A stretch of DNA of 21,937 nt. Source: a virus. The stretch covers positions 1-21,937 of the IMG/VR virus record IMGVR_UViG_3300028388_001912; one strand, given 5' to 3'. Below the pieces are notes generated by a model. The model saw only the letters and a program-made list of their open reading frames with translations, was not told where the DNA came from and searched no databases. Position numbers and translations under genes: made by a program. Positions 6,584 to 21,937 of this stretch are shown here, piece by piece (the first letter of the stretch is position 1; every line of letters starts with the position of its first letter).

Positions 6584-6971
6584 TGTAACTTACACCGCGA
6601 GGCGAAGCCTGATGGCCGGTGTCACTGTCGGCACCGAGGTGACGCTCGATTTCTATGTTGATCAACTTGATCGACAGCGTAATGTTGAGCGCCCGCGCAG
6701 GGTGTCCTTGGGCGGCAGGGTCGAATCCATTTTGCACCGATCGGAGTCTTTCATTTCGGCGCGGTTCCAGCCCGTGTTGGAAGAGGATTTTGGCCCATAT
6801 CGACAGTTTCTCGATTCTGTTGAGGGCGGGGAGGAATTCGTATTCGACCCGTACGGGGTGGGCGCCTCGCCGGTGGAGCTGTTAAACTGCGTGATGGAAT
6901 CAGATAAGTACACTGAGTCCAGAATCAACCACTCATATCTCACCGCTTCGTTCAAGGTCAGGGTGCTTTAA
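6576..6971 (+). CDS. Minor tail protein, possibly distal tail type
   Basis: Three consecutive GTG codons (6570, 6573, 6576) could start this gene. GGGAGG at 6565-6570 gives a good 5-base spacing only to the third, so I place the start there. It overlaps the end of the tape measure gene by 8 bp. The 131-residue product is beta-rich with no signal peptide: [23 protein letters not shown], then [20 protein letters not shown], then [11 protein letters not shown] and a final strand [10 protein letters not shown]. Gene position between tape measure and the hub/fibre protein and the pattern 'F.ar...v...D....r.FLDSV..GE.F.FDPYG' suggest a tail-tip ring protein analogous to the small minor tail proteins of other siphoviruses. 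The function is inferred. Confidence 0.6.
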
Positions 6972-9900
6972 TGTCTGGTTTTTCGCCGGTTTTCACGCAA
7001 CAGCTCGCCATCCCGAATCGGTCGCTGCGGTATGTTATCACGATCGAGTTCGGCGGGGACTTGATTGCGTTGACTTCACATACCGATATTGTGTGGCCCG
7101 ACGCGACTCAAACAATCTCTGGTGTGATCTCTGGCGTGTCGCAGGTGTCGCAGCGGCTTAATGTTCTGGAGTCGCGTTCCACTGTTGGTCGGCTGTCAAT
7201 CAAGGCTATCGACTACAGCAACGAAATCAGCTCGATGCTGGCAACGATGCTGTCGCTTGGTTTCGGTGCGCGGAATCGCAGAGTGCGCTACTACATCGGG
7301 TTCGAAGGGTTTGTGGCTAGCGAATTCTCGATGATGGCGACCCAGTACATCTCGGAGATCACATTTGATGACGGCGAGTACCGCATTAATTGCCATGACC
7401 CGCAGGCGAGGCTCAAGCAGAGAATATTCTCGGTCAAGCGTACCATTCTGACTTCGACGGTGGCTGTTGATGCGACGACTGTCAATGTCGCAGACACATC
7501 GGATTTCGAGTTGGTCGTTCATGGCGCGTCTTACACTGACGCACCCAACAGCACCGTGGGCTACATCCTGATCGACGACGAAGTTATCAGGTATACCGGC
7601 AAGACCGCGACTAGTTTCACCGGGTGTACTCGCGGGGCATTCGGCACAAAGCCCAAAGAACACGAAGTTGGGGACGGCGAGACTTCGCGCCGTCCTGAGG
7701 TGCGCGAGTATGTTTACCTTGAGCTGCCGGCCATCAAGATGGCGTACGCGCTGCTCACAGGTATTGTGCATCCGGACGCGACAACTCTCCCCGATCACTG
7801 GCATACGGGCATCGAGCCTGAGTTGATTGATTTCGACTCTTTCACCGGGATCGGGCGCGATCTGTGGGACCCAACCAACGATCTTGCCGGTATGGTTATC
7901 AGGTTCACGGGGCCTGAAGACGAAGAATCGAAAGCTTTCATTGAGCGCGAAATATACCGGATGGCCGGCGTCTACTCTCCTATCTTGCGAGAGGGCGGTC
8001 TAATCTCACTGCGGCGTATCGCTCGTGTGGACCCGGAAACGCCGCATGTGGCGCGACTAACCTCTGCGAATGTGGTGAAGGTCGGCGCACTGAAGCACGA
8101 CATCTCTGGAATGAAGAATGTGTTCCGGGTAGACTGGAACTACAATGACATAGAGGACAAGTTTACCCGCGCACTGCAGATCGAGGACGGTGAATCAATC
8201 ACTCTCTATGGCCGCACCGATGTGCACAACCTGCAACTGCGTGGGCTGCACGGGGCGTCGCACACACAAAACACACTCTTAAACATTATCGACACACTGC
8301 GTGACCGGTTCTCCGGCCCGCCGCTGACGACCACTGTCGAGGTCTTGCTCAATACTGCTTCGGTGTCCGTTGGTGATGTCGTTCGCCTGACGCTTGATGT
8401 CGTTCGCGACTATCAGGGCAACGCGACGAGCATCGATCGCGCGATGGAAGTGCAAGAGGTTTCGCTCGACGCCGTGCGCGGTGTGCTCAAGCTCAAGCTC
8501 TTCGGATCCGCGCGCGCTAGCGAGGCGACGGTTCCGCAAGCCTCGGCCGCGCTGGCCGATGGCTTTTATAGCTCCGAGGGCACGGATCTCAGCTCTGTGA
8601 CCTCGATCGATGTCAGCGGCAACCTCACGGCCGACGCTGACATCACCGGCGGGCCGGATCTCAACGCGCCGGCGGCGATCTTCTACTACATCGGCAATCT
8701 CACGATTCCGGCCGGTCGCACCCTGACGACGCGCCAGAATGTGCAATTGCGCGTCATGGGTCAACTGACCGTCAACGGCACCATCAGAGCCATCGATGGG
8801 CTGGCCGGGACGAGCGATAACTTCGGTAATGTTGGTTTAATCGGTGCGGCGTCTGGTGGTGTTGGTGTTTATTCTAGGGTGTCGGTGCTGAGCGGTACAC
8901 CCCTGCGAACAGCGGAAACCATAGCCCCGGCAGTTGTCCGTGCACCGAATCTGACGCTGCCGCAGTTTGAACTTGAGAATTACGACGGCACCGAAATTCT
9001 AAACTTGCCGACGGATTTGCGCGGTATTGGTGCTCCGCGCGGCCGTGATGCGACAATGGAGTATGTGGTCCTAGCACAACCGGGGCCGTATGAGACATCC
9101 ATCGCTTCCGGCGGTGCCGGCGGCGATGGTGGCGGCGGTCTGGTGGTGGTCTGTCGAGGCATGGCGACCGGCGTCGGTGGGCTGGTTGATACTTCGGGGG
9201 CGGCTGGGTCGGTAGGTGGCGCTGCGTTCCACGACATGTTGGGCATCCCGTTCGTTCAAGCTGGTAGTGGCGGCGGCGGCGGGCCGGGTGCGTTCCTGCT
9301 GCTGTTGGATGGCTCGCTGTCGATTATCCCAGACTTGGGAGGTCGATTCCATGCCAGAACGGGGGAAATCCCGGTCGGTGTGGGCGTTGGTGTTTTGCCG
9401 CAACCGTTCATCCCTGATCTCGTCCTGTTTAACGACACCAATCCGGCCTTCGACATCTGGCAAGGGAACAAGAGTGAATCGGATGAGCTGAACGAAGCTG
9501 TTTTTGATTCGGCTCTGCGGCGCATCCAGTTCATCCCCGACCCTGAGATACCGCTGCCGGATCCGGCCTCGGCCGAGGATCCCGGGCTCGTGAATGTCGT
9601 CTCGGGCGCGCTCACGCAGCCGGCCTTTATCTCGCCGGCCGAGGCCGACGGCAGTGCGCCCGATCTCACCGGGCTCGGCGGCACCTTCGAGGTGTTCCAA
9701 GGTGATCAGGATGTCACCGCGTCGGCGGTCTTCTCGGTCAACGTGCCGGCCGCCGTCGACGGGCTCACGATGTCGATCGATGCTGCCGGCAACTACTCCG
9801 TTTCGGGCGCATGGTCGAATGCCTCGAATTTGATCACATGGGAGCTCCGTGCTGAGTTCGAGGGCGTGATCCTGATTCGATCCTTTGTGCTCTCGAAGGC

Positions 9901-12900
9901 GCGCGCCGGCCTCGACGGCACGAATGCCGAGGGCGGCATCGATATCGTGTTCACCCGGGCCGCGTCGCAGCCGGCAACCCCGGCACCGTCGGACGGCACC
10001 CCGAGCGGCTGGTATTCCGATGTCGACTCAGTGCCGGCGACGGCCGATCCGATGTGGAGCTCGATCGGGCAGCGCCCCGATGCGCTGAGCAATTTCACAT
10101 GGGAGACGCCGCTGCTCATCGAGGGAACGAACGGCAACCCGGGCGCATCCGTGGCCGAGGTCTCAGCCTACACCCGCAGCGCGGCGCAGCCGGCGAATGC
10201 GACGGGCGGCTCGTATGACTTCGACACGAACGCGCTCACCCCGCCGGCCGGTTACTTTGCCGACATCCAGACGGGCACGGATCCAGTGTGGATCGTGCGC
10301 GCGGTGGCGAGTATCTCCGGCACGAGCGGCGTCGACAGCTCGCTGACTTGGTCGGTTCCGGTGCAAGTGTTCGCCGATGGTGAGACCGGCCCGGAGGGGC
10401 CGCAGGGGCCGTCGGGCGACGACGGGATCTCGATCGCCGAGCTCTCGATCTTCACCCGCGACCCGGGCACGCCGGCGGGTCCGAGCGGCGGCTCGTATGA
10501 CTTCGGCACCGGCGTGCTCACGCCGCCGTCGGGCTGGTTCGTTGATATCCCTTCGGCCGGCACCGACCCGGTGTGGACGGCACGCGCTGTTGCGAGCGTC
10601 ACGGGCACGACGGGCGTCGACAGTTCGCTCGCGTGGTCTCCGGTCGTGCGCGTGTTTCAGGATGGCACCGACGGCACAAACGGCACAAACGGCACCGACG
10701 GATCCGGCGTCGATATTGTATTCCGTCGCGCTCCGTCGCAACCCGCGACGCCGGCACCGTCGACCGGCACCCCGGCGAACTGGTACAGCGATGTCGGCAG
10801 TGTGCCGGCTGGCGCGGATCCATTGTGGAGCTCGATCGGCACCCGCCCCGACTCGACCAGCGCGTACACATGGCAAACGCCAGTCAAGATCGAGGGCATC
10901 GACGGCGCTGAGGGGCCGGATGGGCCGCAAGGGCCGTCGGGGGATGATGGCCTATCGGTTGCCGAGATCGTGGCCTACAGGCGCTCAGCAGGCACGCCAG
11001 CGAACGCGAGCGGCGGCTCATACGATTTCAGCACAAACACTCTGACGCCGCCGGCTGACTGGTTCGCCGATATCCCGGCGGCGGGCACGGATCCCGTGTG
11101 GGCCGTGCGCACTGTTGCCTCGGTGGTCGGTCAAACGGGTGTCGACTCATCTCTCTCGTGGTCGGCTCCGGTGCGCGTGTTCGCCGATGGTGCCGACGGG
11201 CAGGCCGTCGACATCGTTTTCCGCCGGGCGACGACGCAGCCGGCGACGCCGGGCTCGAGTTCTGGCACCCCGACGGGGTGGTACAGCGATGTCGCTTCGG
11301 TTCCGGCTGGCGCGGATCCCTTGTGGAGTTCCGTCGGCACGCGCCCGGATGCTTCGAGCAACTTTACATGGCAAACGCCGATCAAGGTCGAGGGGCTCGA
11401 CGGTGCCGAAGGGCCGGAAGGGCCGCAGGGGCCAGACGGTCCGACCGGGCCGCAGGGACCAGACGGTCCGACCGGGCCGCAGGGACCAGACGGTCCGACC
11501 GGGCCGCAGGGACCAGACGGTCCGACCGGGCCGCCGGGGCGTGATGGCGGCAACACAATCACGAACGGCGGTTTCGAGACCGGAGACGCGACCGGCTGGA
11601 TTCTTCCGAGTGTTGGCTCTCCTGCAATTACATCATCTCAAACTCGCAGTGGCGGCTATTCTCTGTCTCTGGCCGAAGGCAGCGGCGGGCCAGAAGTCGC
11701 CTCCGAGTATTTTGCAGTCGAGCCCGGCGATCGATTCAGGGTCGGCGGTTACTTGATGCGTGATGAGTCGTCGCTGCCGGCCAGTCAAGGCCGCGTCGCG
11801 ATGCGCTTTTATGATGAGAATAGCTCACAGCTTGCTATCGTAAATGCTGCAACCGCAAGCCAGTCGGTGTCCGGATGGCAGCGGGTGGAGGGATACGCTA
11901 CAGCGCCGGCGGGGTCGAAGTATGCTCGAGTCGACTGCGGAACTGGATCAAATACGACAGCGGTCGGGCGCTGGTTTTTCGATGATATGTATTGCTATCG
12001 CACCCTCCCGGGCGGCGATATTGATGATGGCACTCTAGGCGTTACAAAGTTTGCCTCGAGCATTGAGCCGGTGACGATCGTGTCGTCGGTGCCCGGCTCT
12101 AAATCGACCGAGACGGTGTTCAACACAACCGACGGCAAGCTCTACCGCTGGAACGGCTCGGCCTACACGAAAGCCGTCGACGACGACGACATCGTCGAGA
12201 TCAACGCGAACAAGATTAACGCAGACTGGCTCACGGCGGGGGCGATTTCTACGGGCGCGATCGGTGCAAATGAAATTGCCGCCGGAGCGATCACCGCCAA
12301 CAAGCTCGCGATCTTTAGCACCTCTCAGGTGCTTATCGATGGCATGTTTACGAATGCGGGTAATTTTCTTCATGGAGCGGGCGGGGGCTACTCATTCGAG
12401 GATCGCATCTCTGACACAAACGTCGCCAACAACCTAGTCGCTCAAACTGCGCTCAAGATCCCGATCACAACGACAGCAAACGGTGTCTATGCTCGAACTG
12501 GCGACACTAACTATTTCAGTGTCACACCCGGGGAGACCTATCGCATCAAATACCGCGCATGGTGCACCTCGGACGCGAACACCGATGCAAGAATCTATCT
12601 TGCTCTCACGGATACCACGGGGGCGACTCGATGGCCGTCGAAAAACGCATCGAGGCTCGACTGCAACACCCCGGGCGGGTACTGGCTTGAAGGGCTGGTC
12701 ACTGCCGAAGCCGTAGCGAATGGGTATGTCGCGGACGAATATAGGGCGCGCATTTATATCCGCGCCGACGGCACTACATCACCCGCCGGCACATGGTATA
12801 TCACCGACCTATCGGTCGAGAGGGTGTCCAGCTCGACCCTGATCAAGGACGGCGCGATCACGACCGACAAGATTGCGGCAAATGCAATCACGGCAGGGAA

Positions 12901-14329
12901 GATCGACGTTACGCAACTTTCGTCCGTTGCTGCGGTTATTGGGGAGTTGCGTAATCGTGTGGACGAGTCTGGGACGGTACCGTTCATGCGGTTGTCTGCA
13001 AGCGACTCCCCAATCGAGATTTTTGACAACAACGGTTCCAGTGGGCAACGACTGCTTGGTGTCGATTCTGTCACCGTGAATGGACAGCAGCAAATTCGCG
13101 TAGGCATACGGGGTTCGTTCGCGGCAAACACCATCAACGATGCCGCGTGGCTGACTGACGCGGGTGCTGACGCACTCCGCGCACGTCTTGGTTACGTCGC
13201 TCCTATAAACCCCTCTGGCGGCACAATCTCACTTGAGGGTGAGGCTTTAAGCCACACAACAGTTACACAATATGTGGACCTCAATCCTAGTACGATCACT
13301 TCTGCTGGGGCCGGCGCATACGCCAGTGCGTCACTTAAGCTTTATGGCCAGTATTCAATGGAGACGAGCACTGACCCGAATTGGACAGCACCACGGTACA
13401 CGGTTCAGTTCCAGTTTGATAACAGCTCGACGTTCGCTTCACCAACCAATTTTGGCTCTGCTCAGCTGCTGATCGGCCATGCAAATTACATGCCTGGAGA
13501 ACCAGCAGAAGGCATTCCGGGCACGGCTGCTGTAGGAATCTCTGCAACAGCCACGGTTGACGGCAATTTGCCCGCAGGTGAAAGTGCTGGCACGATGTAT
13601 TGGCGGGCGATAATCACACGCACTGTCGCGTGGCCGGGTATCACACCGAACATTTTCGAGGTGGAGACGTTCACCGCTACTGAAGAGGTAGTTGGCGATG
13701 TGGCAGCGCACACCCACACCGATTACGTTTCTACCGGTGGTGGTACCATCACTGGTACCCTCAACGTAGACACAGACCTCTATGTCGGTGGCGGCGGCAC
13801 TGGGACGACCGGGGCGTTGCGTCTGTTCAAATCAGGCGAACATAGCTACATCAGAAGTTATGACCACTCGGGCAACGTCTATATCCAAGCAGAAGATGCT
13901 GGCGGCGTACTGAGAAACCTGTGGTACGCCGACCCGGACGGCAGCTCATACATGTATGCCGATGGTACGGCTCGCATCACGGCGACCACCGTAGGAGCAA
14001 CAATCTCCGGCTCCCTCACGGCTACCAGCAATATCACCGCGTATTCGGACGCTCGGCACAAGGAGAACGTAGAAACGATTCCGGCGGCGCTGGATAAGGT
14101 CGGCCAAATGCGTGGCGTCTACTTCACCCGCAAGGATGATGAGACGCAACGCCGCCACACTGGCGTCATCGCGCAGGAAGTGGAACAGGTGTTGCCTGAA
14201 GTGGTCTTTAAGGACGACAATACAGACAGCCTGACCATCGACTATGGCAACGTCGTCGGCGTGTTGATCGAGGCGATAAAAGAGTTGCGCGAAGAAGTGC
14301 GGCTGTTGAAGAAGGAGCGCGACAAGTGA
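6971..14329 (+). CDS. Giant tail hub/fibre protein with collagen-like tracts and self-cleaving S74 C-terminus
   Basis: This 2,452-residue protein begins at an ATG overlapping the previous TAA (TAATG). Residues 1 to about 520 look like a tail hub domain, including [20 protein letters not shown], a strand motif common in phage tail proteins. A Gly-rich stretch spans about 710-780. Residues 990-1475 are six repeat modules (A-B-B-A-B-A) with short collagen-like linkers. Residues 1476-1526 are a GPQGPDGPT collagen-like tract. Residues about 1528-1675 ([12 protein letters not shown]) and about 1787-1953 look like carbohydrate-binding jelly rolls. Between and after them are GAI...KIAA linkers typical of phage fibres. 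The C-terminus is a peptidase S74 chaperone: SDARHK at 2359-2364 gives the Ser/Lys pair with the usual five-residue spacing, then [15 protein letters not shown], then a coiled coil. Known relatives cut themselves just before this Ser, which here would release about 94 residues after trimerisation. The role is receptor binding at the tail tip. Confidence 0.85.
9938..11395 (+). repeat. Six-module repeat array (A-B-B-A-B-A) within the giant fibre gene
   Basis: Module A (about 63 residues, starting [13 protein letters not shown] and ending W.TP.K.EG) occurs at residues 990-1052, 1247-1309 and 1413-1475. Module B (about 78 residues, starting S.AE...Y.R and ending V.VFADG, with GGSYDF, TPP..WF.DI and DPVW inside) occurs at 1060-1137, 1153-1232 and 1329-1407. 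Linkers are [23 protein letters not shown] and [13 protein letters not shown]. Copies are diverged but clearly homologous at DNA level too, and the whole stretch is more GC-rich than the surroundings. Confidence 0.9.
11421..11528 (+). repeat. Four tandem 27-bp repeats encoding collagen-like GPQGPDGPT
   Basis: Units start at 11421, 11448, 11475 and 11502. The only difference I see is G versus A at one position in the first unit. Each encodes three Gly-X-Y triplets. The tract continues into GPPGRDGG. Near-identity implies recent expansion and likely copy-number variation by slippage. Confidence 0.95.
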
Positions 14330-19148: not shown

Positions 19149-19685
19149 ATGTCGAAGTTCAACGTTGGCGATACCGTCATTTACAAGGGCAACGAGGCCG
19201 AGGTCGTTGCGGTTTCCGGTGGCTGGACCACTATCATCACGCAAGAGGGCCGGCAGCTGAAGGCCCGCAATGGCGCACTGTCCGCACCGGGTGCCAAGCC
19301 GAAGGCCAAGCCGAAGGCCAAGCCGAAGGCGACCCCGAAGCCGAAGGCGACCCCGAAGCCGAAGTCCGAAGGCGAAGAGGACGAGGATGACGCGGTGCGG
19401 CTGCACCCCGACCTGACCAAGTACACCAAGCACGACATCAAGACGGCATCCGGCCGGCGCTGCATCGACATTGCCGACGAAGTCGCCAACATGCTGCGCG
19501 GCCACGACCTCGACGAGGTGTACAAGCTGACCGCCCGCAAGCTCAATGAGTTGGGTGCGAAGACGACACAGGCGGCGCTGCACGACCAGTACGACCACCT
19601 GAACCCCGGCATGCAGCGCATGAATCTCGGGAACCGGCTGCGGGCCGCGATTCGCAAGTTCGAAGAGGAGGGCAGCGCCGCCTGA
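19149..19685 (+). CDS. Probable nucleic-acid-associated protein: KOW/SH3-like head, Lys-Pro linker, conserved C-terminal domain
   Basis: AGAGGA precedes the ATG. Residues 1-47 look like a small SH3/KOW-type barrel (FNVGDTVIYKGNEAEVVAVSGGW). Residues 49-72 are a basic low-complexity linker, three AKPK units then two ATPKPK units, resembling histone H1-like tails. A short acidic stretch follows (SEGEEDEDD). Residues about 84-178 form a helical domain, with TASGRRCIDIADEVANMLRG, LDEVYKLTARKLNELG and LNPGMQRMNLGNRLRAAIRKF. I associate this last pattern with small uncharacterised proteins of other phages. The basic linker suggests DNA or RNA binding. It is the last gene before the terminator and just upstream of the candidate origin, which would suit a role in DNA handling; that is inference. 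Confidence 0.65.
   Translation: MSKFNVGDTVIYKGNEAEVVAVSGGWTTIITQEGRQLKARNGALSAPGAKPKAKPKAKPKATPKPKATPKPKSEGEEDEDDAVRLHPDLTKYTKHDIKTASGRRCIDIADEVANMLRGHDLDEVYKLTARKLNELGAKTTQAALHDQYDHLNPGMQRMNLGNRLRAAIRKFEEEGSAA
19293..19364 (+). repeat. Short tandem repeats encoding the Lys-Pro linker
   Basis: Three 12-bp units GCCAAGCCGAAG (19293-19328) are followed by two 18-bp units GCGACCCCGAAGCCGAAG (19329-19364), identical within each set. They keep the reading frame and are prone to copy-number change. Confidence 0.9.
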
Positions 19686-19714: not shown

Positions 19715-19741
19715 GGACCCGCCCAGTGCGGGTCCGTTTTT
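19715..19741 (+). terminator. Rho-independent terminator
   Basis: GGACCCGC (19715-19722) and GCGGGTCC (19728-19735) form a perfect 8-bp stem with a five-base loop, followed by G and five T (19737-19741). It ends the small-gene transcription unit 30 bp after the stop of the 19149 gene. Confidence 0.9.
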
Positions 19742-19753
19742 ATGGGCCGGCCG

Positions 19754-19807
19754 CACGGGAGCCGCACGGGAGGCCACGGGGGCCACGGGAGCTATGGGTG
19801 TGGGGGG
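19754..19807 (+). repeat. CACGGG repeats and G-tracts
   Basis: CACGGG occurs at 19754, 19765, 19775 and 19784 (spacings 11, 10 and 9 bp), followed by GGG at 19796-19798 and six G at 19802-19807. At least six G-runs of three or more lie within about 50 bp, enough for G-quadruplex formation on the + strand. Confidence 0.8.
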
Positions 19808-19808
19808 T

Positions 19809-19868
19809 CAGGCCCTCGCGCCCGAGGGAGAGGACGGGAGACGCCACCGGGCGCAACCAGAGGGCCTG
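19809..19868. repeat. Long GC-rich stem with asymmetric bulge
   Basis: CAGGCCCTC (19809-19817) pairs with GAGGGCCTG (19860-19868). The directly adjacent GCGCCCG (19818-19824) pairs with CGGGCGC (19848-19854). The result is 16 bp of perfect pairing with a five-base bulge AACCA (19855-19859) on one side and a 23-base loop. Chance occurrence is unlikely even in GC-rich DNA. Confidence 0.8.
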
Positions 19869-19974
19869 GACTCACCCCCGGAGGGCGGGAGGCGTTCCGT
19901 TTCTTTTTTATAGAACCGCTCCTGCTGTCCAGAAGACAGGTCGAGGGGCGGGCCTCGCTTTCAGGAGAGGGTAC

Positions 19975-20007
19975 CTGTTCCATCTCTCGTGGGTGGAGAT
20001 GGAACAG
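19975..20007. repeat. Perfect 12-bp inverted repeat
   Basis: CTGTTCCATCTC (19975-19986) and GAGATGGAACAG (19996-20007) are perfect complements around a nine-base spacer TCGTGGGTG. The arm starts with the same CTGTTCCA found in the repeats at 20043-20085. No T-tract follows, so it is not an intrinsic terminator. Confidence 0.85.
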
Positions 20008-20042
20008 CCACAGGCCCCGTCGGAAGGGAAGTTGCGGCCGGT

Positions 20043-20085
20043 CTGTTCCCGTGTTCCACTGTTCCATGTGTCCTGAGCTGTCCCG
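20043..20085 (+). repeat. Iteron-like CTGTTCC repeats
   Basis: Contiguous 8-bp units CTGTTCCC (20043), GTGTTCCA (20051), CTGTTCCA (20059) and the degenerate TGTGTCCT (20067) are followed by CTGTCCCG (20078-20085). The same core is in both arms of the inverted repeat at 19975-20007. An ordered series of short direct repeats upstream of a primase gene is typical of initiator binding sites. Confidence 0.65.
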
Positions 20086-20134
20086 TTAGTGACAGCATCG
20101 GGCTTCTATAAAAAGAGACACAGAGGTACAGGAT

Positions 20135-21704: not shown

Positions 21705-21937
21705 ATGGCTAGGGCAAGTAGATTTTCACCACGGACTGCGAATTCCCGGATAGAGATCGAATGGAACAGTAAGAAAAATCGATTCCAGATCGCCTGTCCG
21801 TTCACCGCCAACGGGCTGGTACAGAAGATACCCCGCCGCCGTTGGAGTAAGGCGCTGAGGATGTGGATGGTGCCGCCCGACAGACGCAACATCGAGGCCA
21901 TTCGTGAGATTCTGGTGCCGGTGGCGACGAGCATCAC
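21705..21937 (+). CDS. SNF2-type helicase, N-terminal part (truncated by window end)
   Basis: The ATG at 21705 comes one base after the primase TGA, and the frame stays open to the window edge (77 codons). The visible residues include IEIEWNSKKNRFQIACPF, GLVQKIPRRRWSKALRMW and PPDRRNIEAIREIL. The pattern 'f.i.cPf...gLv..IP.RrW.k..r.W.vP....N...i' is the HARP-like/N-terminal segment that precedes the DEAD/SNF2 motor in many phage helicases. No motor motif is in the window, so the call depends on that N-terminal pattern and the primase neighbour. Confidence 0.6.
   Translation, partial: MARASRFSPRTANSRIEIEWNSKKNRFQIACPFTANGLVQKIPRRRWSKALRMWMVPPDRRNIEAIREILVPVATSI

Follow-up and report, generated by a model that had tools for sequence, protein, structure and literature searches.

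A candidate iteron-type replication origin upstream of an AEP primase gene in a lineage of 2-aminoadenine (Z) phages

A conserved module, in which inverted boxes and small hairpins surround TGTTCC iterons and a GC-rich core, lies at about 19903-20115 of a phage fragment, an IMG/VR record 21,937 bases long that is referred to in its entirety as the window. The module is probably an iteron-type replication origin, to which the phage primase or a partner protein would bind (probability about 0.6, judged from sequence comparison). This reading is favored because the module is conserved ahead of the primase operon, iterons flank the core, the hairpins are paired, and the arrangement is independent of orientation. 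The original prediction had proposed all of 19742-20134 as a candidate origin: the conserved module is the part that stands, while the G-rich repeats of this region fall outside the module and a skew switch does not accompany it.

Gene setting and elements of the module

In the window, tail genes and a few small genes precede a terminator, and a stretch of about 390 bp that holds no accepted gene separates this terminator from the gene of an AEP primase (Table 1). The anticipated placement behind a terminator and in front of the primase is thus borne out by the stem at 19715-19735 and the primase reading frame from 20135. The fragment of a gene at the window end (21705-21935) has no Pfam match; its position and its resemblance to relatives suggest that it is the start of an SNF2-type helicase. 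The protein encoded upstream of the terminator (19149-19685) combines Lys-Pro-rich repeats with a C-terminal domain common to a conserved Z-phage protein. It has a relative within the conserved protein set of five complete phages, in L020 and L132 its relatives precede the primase, and it is at most a possible partner protein. A DNA search with the whole window matched six phage records, which covered at most 13% of the query. Among the tail genes, one encodes a protein of 2452 aa with collagen-like GPxGP repeats (window 6971-14329).

Table 1. Features in and around the module (positions in the window).
Feature	Positions	Strand	Remark
Upstream gene, 178 aa	19149-19685	+	phrog_8941/phrog_8878, function unknown
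Intrinsic terminator stem, then T-run	19715-19735	+	divides upstream genes from module
G-rich direct repeats, CACGGGAGC type	19750-19792	+	
Left box CTTTTTTATAGAA	19903-19915	+	AT-rich patch
Left small hairpin CTGTC-N5-GACAG	19925-19939	+	counterpart of relatives' TGTC-N7-GACA hairpin
12-bp palindrome, perfect arms	19975-20007	.	one forward and one reversed iteron core (TGTTCC / GGAACA)
GC-rich core GGCCCCGTCGGAAGGG	20013-20028	.	
Iteron array, 8-bp period	20043-20073	+	three TGTTCC and one degenerate copy
Right small hairpin CTGTC-N8-GACAG	20078-20095	.	
Right box TTCTATAAAAAG, inverted copy of left box	20104-20115	-	AT-rich patch
AEP primase, 522 aa	20135-21703	+	AEP-TOTE domain 45-177, PriCT_1 223-286
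Gene start at the place of relatives' SNF2-type helicase	21705-21935	+	cut by window end

The elements named in the original prediction (G-tract repeats, stems, iterons, and AT-rich patches) are all present in the sequence, and most of them stand out above shuffled sequence. In 500 dinucleotide-preserving shuffles of 19742-20134, which give one value per feature, uncorrected for the choice of features by eye, the value is 0.002 for a stem of at least 12 bp, 0.016 for a distant exact inverted repeat of at least 11 bases (the AT-rich patch pair), and a marginal 0.038 for the 8-bp periodicity; five copies of TGTTCC/GGAACA occur in 0/500 shuffles (shuffle mean 0.18). These copies are located at 19976, 20001, 20044, 20052, and 20060. 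The stem at 19975-20007 indeed uses the iteron core as its arm, as had been claimed: its perfect 12-bp arms hold TGTTCC and GGAACA. Two features had been missed: the AT-rich patches form an exact 11-base inverted pair, and each of these boxes has a CTGTC...GACAG hairpin on its inner side. Within the GC-rich core, the 15-mer from 20015 differs by two mismatches from CCCCGTNNGACGSGG of the relatives' modules.

The G-rich repeats comprise GCCGCACGGGA, which occurs twice at 19750-19771, and CACGGGAGC at 19754 and 19784. The commonest 7-mer of 19742-20134 is CACGGGA from these repeats and not the iteron. Because no counterpart of 19742-19895 was seen in relatives, the G-rich repeats are probably not part of the module. 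A promoter scanner detects no sigma-70 promoter in 19742-20134, and the window has no Rfam match. No AT-rich stretch separates the iteron sets of the window; the 25-mers of lowest GC content lie outside, at 20104 and 19890-19892.

Conservation in relatives and a second copy

Relatives of the primase are encoded in 24 phage records, in 19 of them over at least 80% of its length, and others are found in viral and genome contigs. Of 26 other loci with the same AEP primase, which omit distant primase relatives (~30-37% identity) except L132, 21 show on reading a comparable module upstream of the primase gene (L001-L007, L012-L014, L017-L020, L095, L130, L197-L201), while genes instead of a module precede it in five (L015, L016, L123, L125, L132). 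The 21 loci are not independent cases, since they include near-identical phages (L018/L019, L013/L197, L006/L199/L201, and others). Their intergenic regions extend from a gene end or terminator to the primase and contain inverted boxes, hairpins, iterons or a core in similar order. The conservation in relatives suggested as a check of the original prediction is borne out: the module recurs before the same primase with changed sequences and the architecture retained. Boxes are weak or unclear in L001, L017, L018, and L020, an AT-rich center was read in L018, and L095 has boxes and one hairpin without iterons. The pattern GAAACTGTCGCCNNNNGACAATAT has no match in viral_contigs. The primase and partial module of L095 are located on a contig that is binned as a Cycloclasticus MAG and is probably phage DNA.

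Statistics were obtained for hand-chosen regions, i.e., 18 for boxes and 7-mers, from which the near-duplicates L019, L197, L199, and L201 are omitted, and 13 for folding. The left half matches the reversed right half above shuffles at 0.05 in 11/18 regions, the paired boxes are the top inverted match in 10/18, and an iteron-like 7-mer is enriched at 0.05 in 13/18 (in the window, the top 7-mer is the G-rich repeat). The boxes vary by phage, being AT-rich in the window and CACGTG-like, CGTACG-like or CCCGCGAGAGG elsewhere; left and right box of one phage agree and change together from phage to phage, and the iterons vary as well. The spacing of TGTC...GACA is nearly fixed, with N7 in 20 of 27 matches over 20 regions. 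Differences between the left and the reversed right box, counted in segments of 10 related, non-independent regions (L002, L001, and L020 omitted), comprise 12 wobble-keeping changes, 9 opposite transitions, and 14 transversions. Since these differences do not preserve base pairing, the boxes look like protein sites in duplex DNA.

All five complete relatives (Barton, DMU1, Kokobel2, PMBT28, and VLCpiS6a) contain a second, intergenic copy of the module ahead of the late genes; with the records treated as circular, the two copies are 20.9 to 23.5 kb apart. The second copies span about 1558-2008 of the record in L202, 43020-43350 in L203, 42520-42850 in L204, 14126-14450 in L205, and 43550-43940 in L206. 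Further copies of the elements score best at this second site; the lead is clear in Barton and DMU1 and narrower in Kokobel2, PMBT28, and VLCpiS6a. Iteron 7-mer clusters are present at both sites in four of the five phages, the leading repeats at site 2 of Barton being different from those at site 1. Moreover, 13 of the 15 occurrences of TGTC-N7-GACA in the five genomes fall into the two modules. Core matches with at most one mismatch are confined to the modules, at both sites in VLCpiS6a, DMU1, and Barton and at the first site only in PMBT28; Kokobel2 has none.

In the five phages, each copy is preceded by a gene end or terminator and followed by a promoter-like sequence; TTGACA-N17-TATAAT-like sequences occur at site 2 of VLCpiS6a, PMBT28, and Kokobel2. 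Site 2 is inverted relative to site 1 and to its own promoter in DMU1 and Barton and not in the other three, and this difference in orientation between clades is easier to reconcile with an origin than with a fixed operator. One module of DMU1 and of Barton adjoins the first gene of the record, which encodes the small terminase in DMU1. The GC-skew switch suggested as a check of the original prediction did not appear, as none of the five complete relatives has a skew extremum at the site; the extrema lie elsewhere.

Among six long IMG/VR records, three (G001, G005, G007) have a second cluster of the module's iteron about 20.5-21.6 kb away, with four iteron copies at the first site of G001, which is under the threshold used. 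G003, G006, and G008 have no second cluster with this iteron. G001, G005, and G007 also hold repeat clusters unrelated to the iterons, and a long repeat region in G001 (G001:C1 20926-22301, L236) has as many as 25 copies of ACTGCAA in 350 bases. In G008, an AGGCGCG cluster occurs at both contig ends (L250 1-376; L252 from about 2226); located just past the SNF2-type helicase, it may be that phage's own origin.

The primase, the Z-genome lineage and known origins

The primase matches phrog_21866 as well as the Pfam families PF22548 (E 3.6e-15) and PF08708 (E 6.8e-07), i.e., AEP-TOTE and PriCT_1; a PDB sequence search returned just three matches (E 0.74-0.77). Residues 5-215 (model mean pLDDT 87.2) fit AEP enzymes: the best fold match is the CRISPR-associated PrimPol 7nqf (Z 21.2, rmsd 2.8, 197 aligned), and the S-2L PrimPol 6zp9 and RepB' 3h25 reach Z 9.6 and Z 8.0 (174 aligned, rmsd 5.5), respectively. 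The C-terminal part (residues 318-522), modeled alone with a mean pLDDT of 86.9, gives weak structural matches, many of them to winged-helix DNA binders. Residues 82-205 of this model match mostly winged-helix proteins, e.g., TcpK on oriT DNA (Z 5.8) and RepE (Z 3.3-4.3); residues 1-81 match SaPI Rep (Z 5.6) and SCCmec Cch (Z 5.1). No Foldseek E-value for the C-terminal part is below 0.13 and all of these matches, the winged-helix ones included, have Z below 8; they may reflect only a shared general arrangement.

PurZ scores over its curated cut-off in PMBT28, DMU1, and Barton; of these, PMBT28 alone was scanned for DpoZ, which likewise exceeds its curated cut-off there. Among 10 IMG/VR relatives, both families are matched in seven, and the remaining three are records of 13-27 kb; matches over the cut-off number 5/10 for PurZ, a family that also matches bacterial controls below its cut-off, and 7/10 for DpoZ. 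Since the relatives encode PurZ and DpoZ, the lineage is one of 2-aminoadenine (Z) phages. The window is a fragment with no purZ or dpoZ match and stops before these genes, and it is therefore from the relatives that we infer a Z genome for its phage. The same module is present in SH-Ab 15497. Replication origins usually need A:T-rich DNA that is readily melted. The S-2L paper treats SH-Ab 15497 as a Z phage and regards A:T melting at origins as a likely problem for DNA with Z in place of A (PMC8342488). The literature searched, which mostly excludes subscription papers and was accessible in part, yielded no description of an origin of these Z phages. As the candidate is common to the cultured phages SH-Ab 15497, DMU1, PMBT28, Kokobel2, and VLCpiS6a, the start of Z-genome replication becomes directly testable.

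The module resembles PICI origins and the oriV of RSF1010 and is assigned to neither. PICI/SaPI origins likewise consist of two sets of short iterons, which flank a central segment beside replication genes, and SaPI Rep binds its own iterons via its C-terminal domain (PMC6092414, PMC7581432). Two iteron sets are present in the window, the palindrome at 19975-20007 and the array at 20043-20073, and were also recognized in relatives by reading. However, two PICI features are missing, as the window has no AT-rich melting region between the iteron sets and the module lies 5' of the primase gene instead of directly 3' of a rep gene; the module is therefore not classed as a PICI origin. It further differs by its GC-rich center, the additional boxes and hairpins, and the two copies per genome in relatives, and none of the conserved proteins scanned was recognized as a SaPI-type Rep helicase.

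The origin of RSF1010 (IncQ) contains iterons, too. RSF1010 oriV is served by RepB', a primase with an AEP and PriCT-1 layout that the phage primase shares (PMC4434180, PMC4538821), and its hairpin sites ssiA and ssiB provide one site per strand (PMC4434180, PMC5862659). These two hairpin elements of oriV are oppositely oriented, and the module has two small hairpins beside inverted boxes. The module differs from oriV in the hairpins themselves and in where they stand with respect to the iterons, and the catalytic domain matches the fold of RepB' at no more than the Z-score given above. Satellite phage P4, which is mentioned in PMC6092414, offers a third comparison. It has ori and crr, which function with the alpha protein. 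These are two separate sites of short iterons in one genome, as in the relatives described here. In contrast to P4, there is no primase-helicase of the alpha type here, and the sites of the relatives are about 21-23 kb apart.

Proposed initiation and alternative readings

The architecture of the module, its conservation, its second copy in relatives, and the primase domains are observed; every functional step of the origin model is inferred. The initiator that binds the iterons on either side of the GC-rich core would be a partner protein or, most likely, the primase itself via its C-terminal part. Primase and SNF2-type helicase would then load at the module, primers would be started at the small hairpins beside the inverted boxes, on one strand or on both, and a DpoZ-type polymerase, as seen in relatives, would extend them. 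The copy before the late genes could act as a second origin or as a cooperating site. A more specific hypothesis, which is rather doubtful, is that Z phages use a two-copy origin at which one AEP primase with a winged helix both binds the 8-bp iterons around the GC-rich core and primes at strand-specific hairpins. If so, initiation would be independent of a weakly paired A:T element for melting, the kind of element that 2-aminoadenine would make stronger.

The two modules might instead be control regions, at which a phage regulator acting on boxes, dyads, and iterons switches the replication and late operons. This reading is less probable than that of an origin, yet transcriptional control is a serious rival because the two copies precede promoters, a skew switch is missing, and the center is not AT-rich. 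Each copy has a gene end or terminator on one side and, on the other, a promoter-like sequence that leads into a gene block, and the near-constant spacing of TGTC-N7-GACA is expected of a duplex dyad. However, the module's orientation to the promoter varies by clade, its span of about 200-250 bp is long for an operator, and similar iteron arrays adjoin primase-like genes in unrelated phages. That the modules are centromere-like, packaging or recombination sites bordering the early gene block is improbable: their spacing of about 20.5-23.5 kb in the five complete relatives and three IMG/VR records approximates this block, and the copy next to the first gene of the DMU1 and Barton records, with the small terminase in DMU1, would fit, but the other copy precedes the primase and no partition gene was recognized among the conserved proteins scanned. 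The idea that pairing of the boxes closes a structured RNA, or that the region is an antitermination signal made as RNA, was rejected as very improbable. The boxes could pair, and folding energies are under those of shuffles in 13/13 regions on both strands, in some strongly; however, these 13 regions have no consistent strand preference, the window lacks an Rfam match, the box differences counted above do not maintain pairing, and the region has a terminator upstream and a promoter downstream.

The arrays in unrelated phages, which bear on the choice between an origin and a control region, are iteron triples of the GGAACGGT unit in 10 contigs (L207-L216) and of the GGAACAGT unit in nine (L217-L225). 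L207-L216 show no relation to the probe Z-phage proteins, bar terminase-like matches in L215. A gene with a match to 'DNA primase' families lies beside or near the array in 7/19 contigs (L207, L208, L209, L210, L216, L221, L224), of which L208 and L209 are the same region; several of the iteron contigs are short. The PHROGs scan of neighbors covered 10 proteins from 8/10 GGAACGGT loci and 10 proteins from 8/14 GGAACAGT and changed-unit loci. A scan for repeats of a changed unit, intended as a control, yielded five contigs and likewise found one array (L228) beside a primase, so that the neighbor test is one without a clean negative. L207-L216 and L217-L225 have the same 8-bp GGAAC iterons, and in many cases two arrays face each other across a GCGCGCG or other core.
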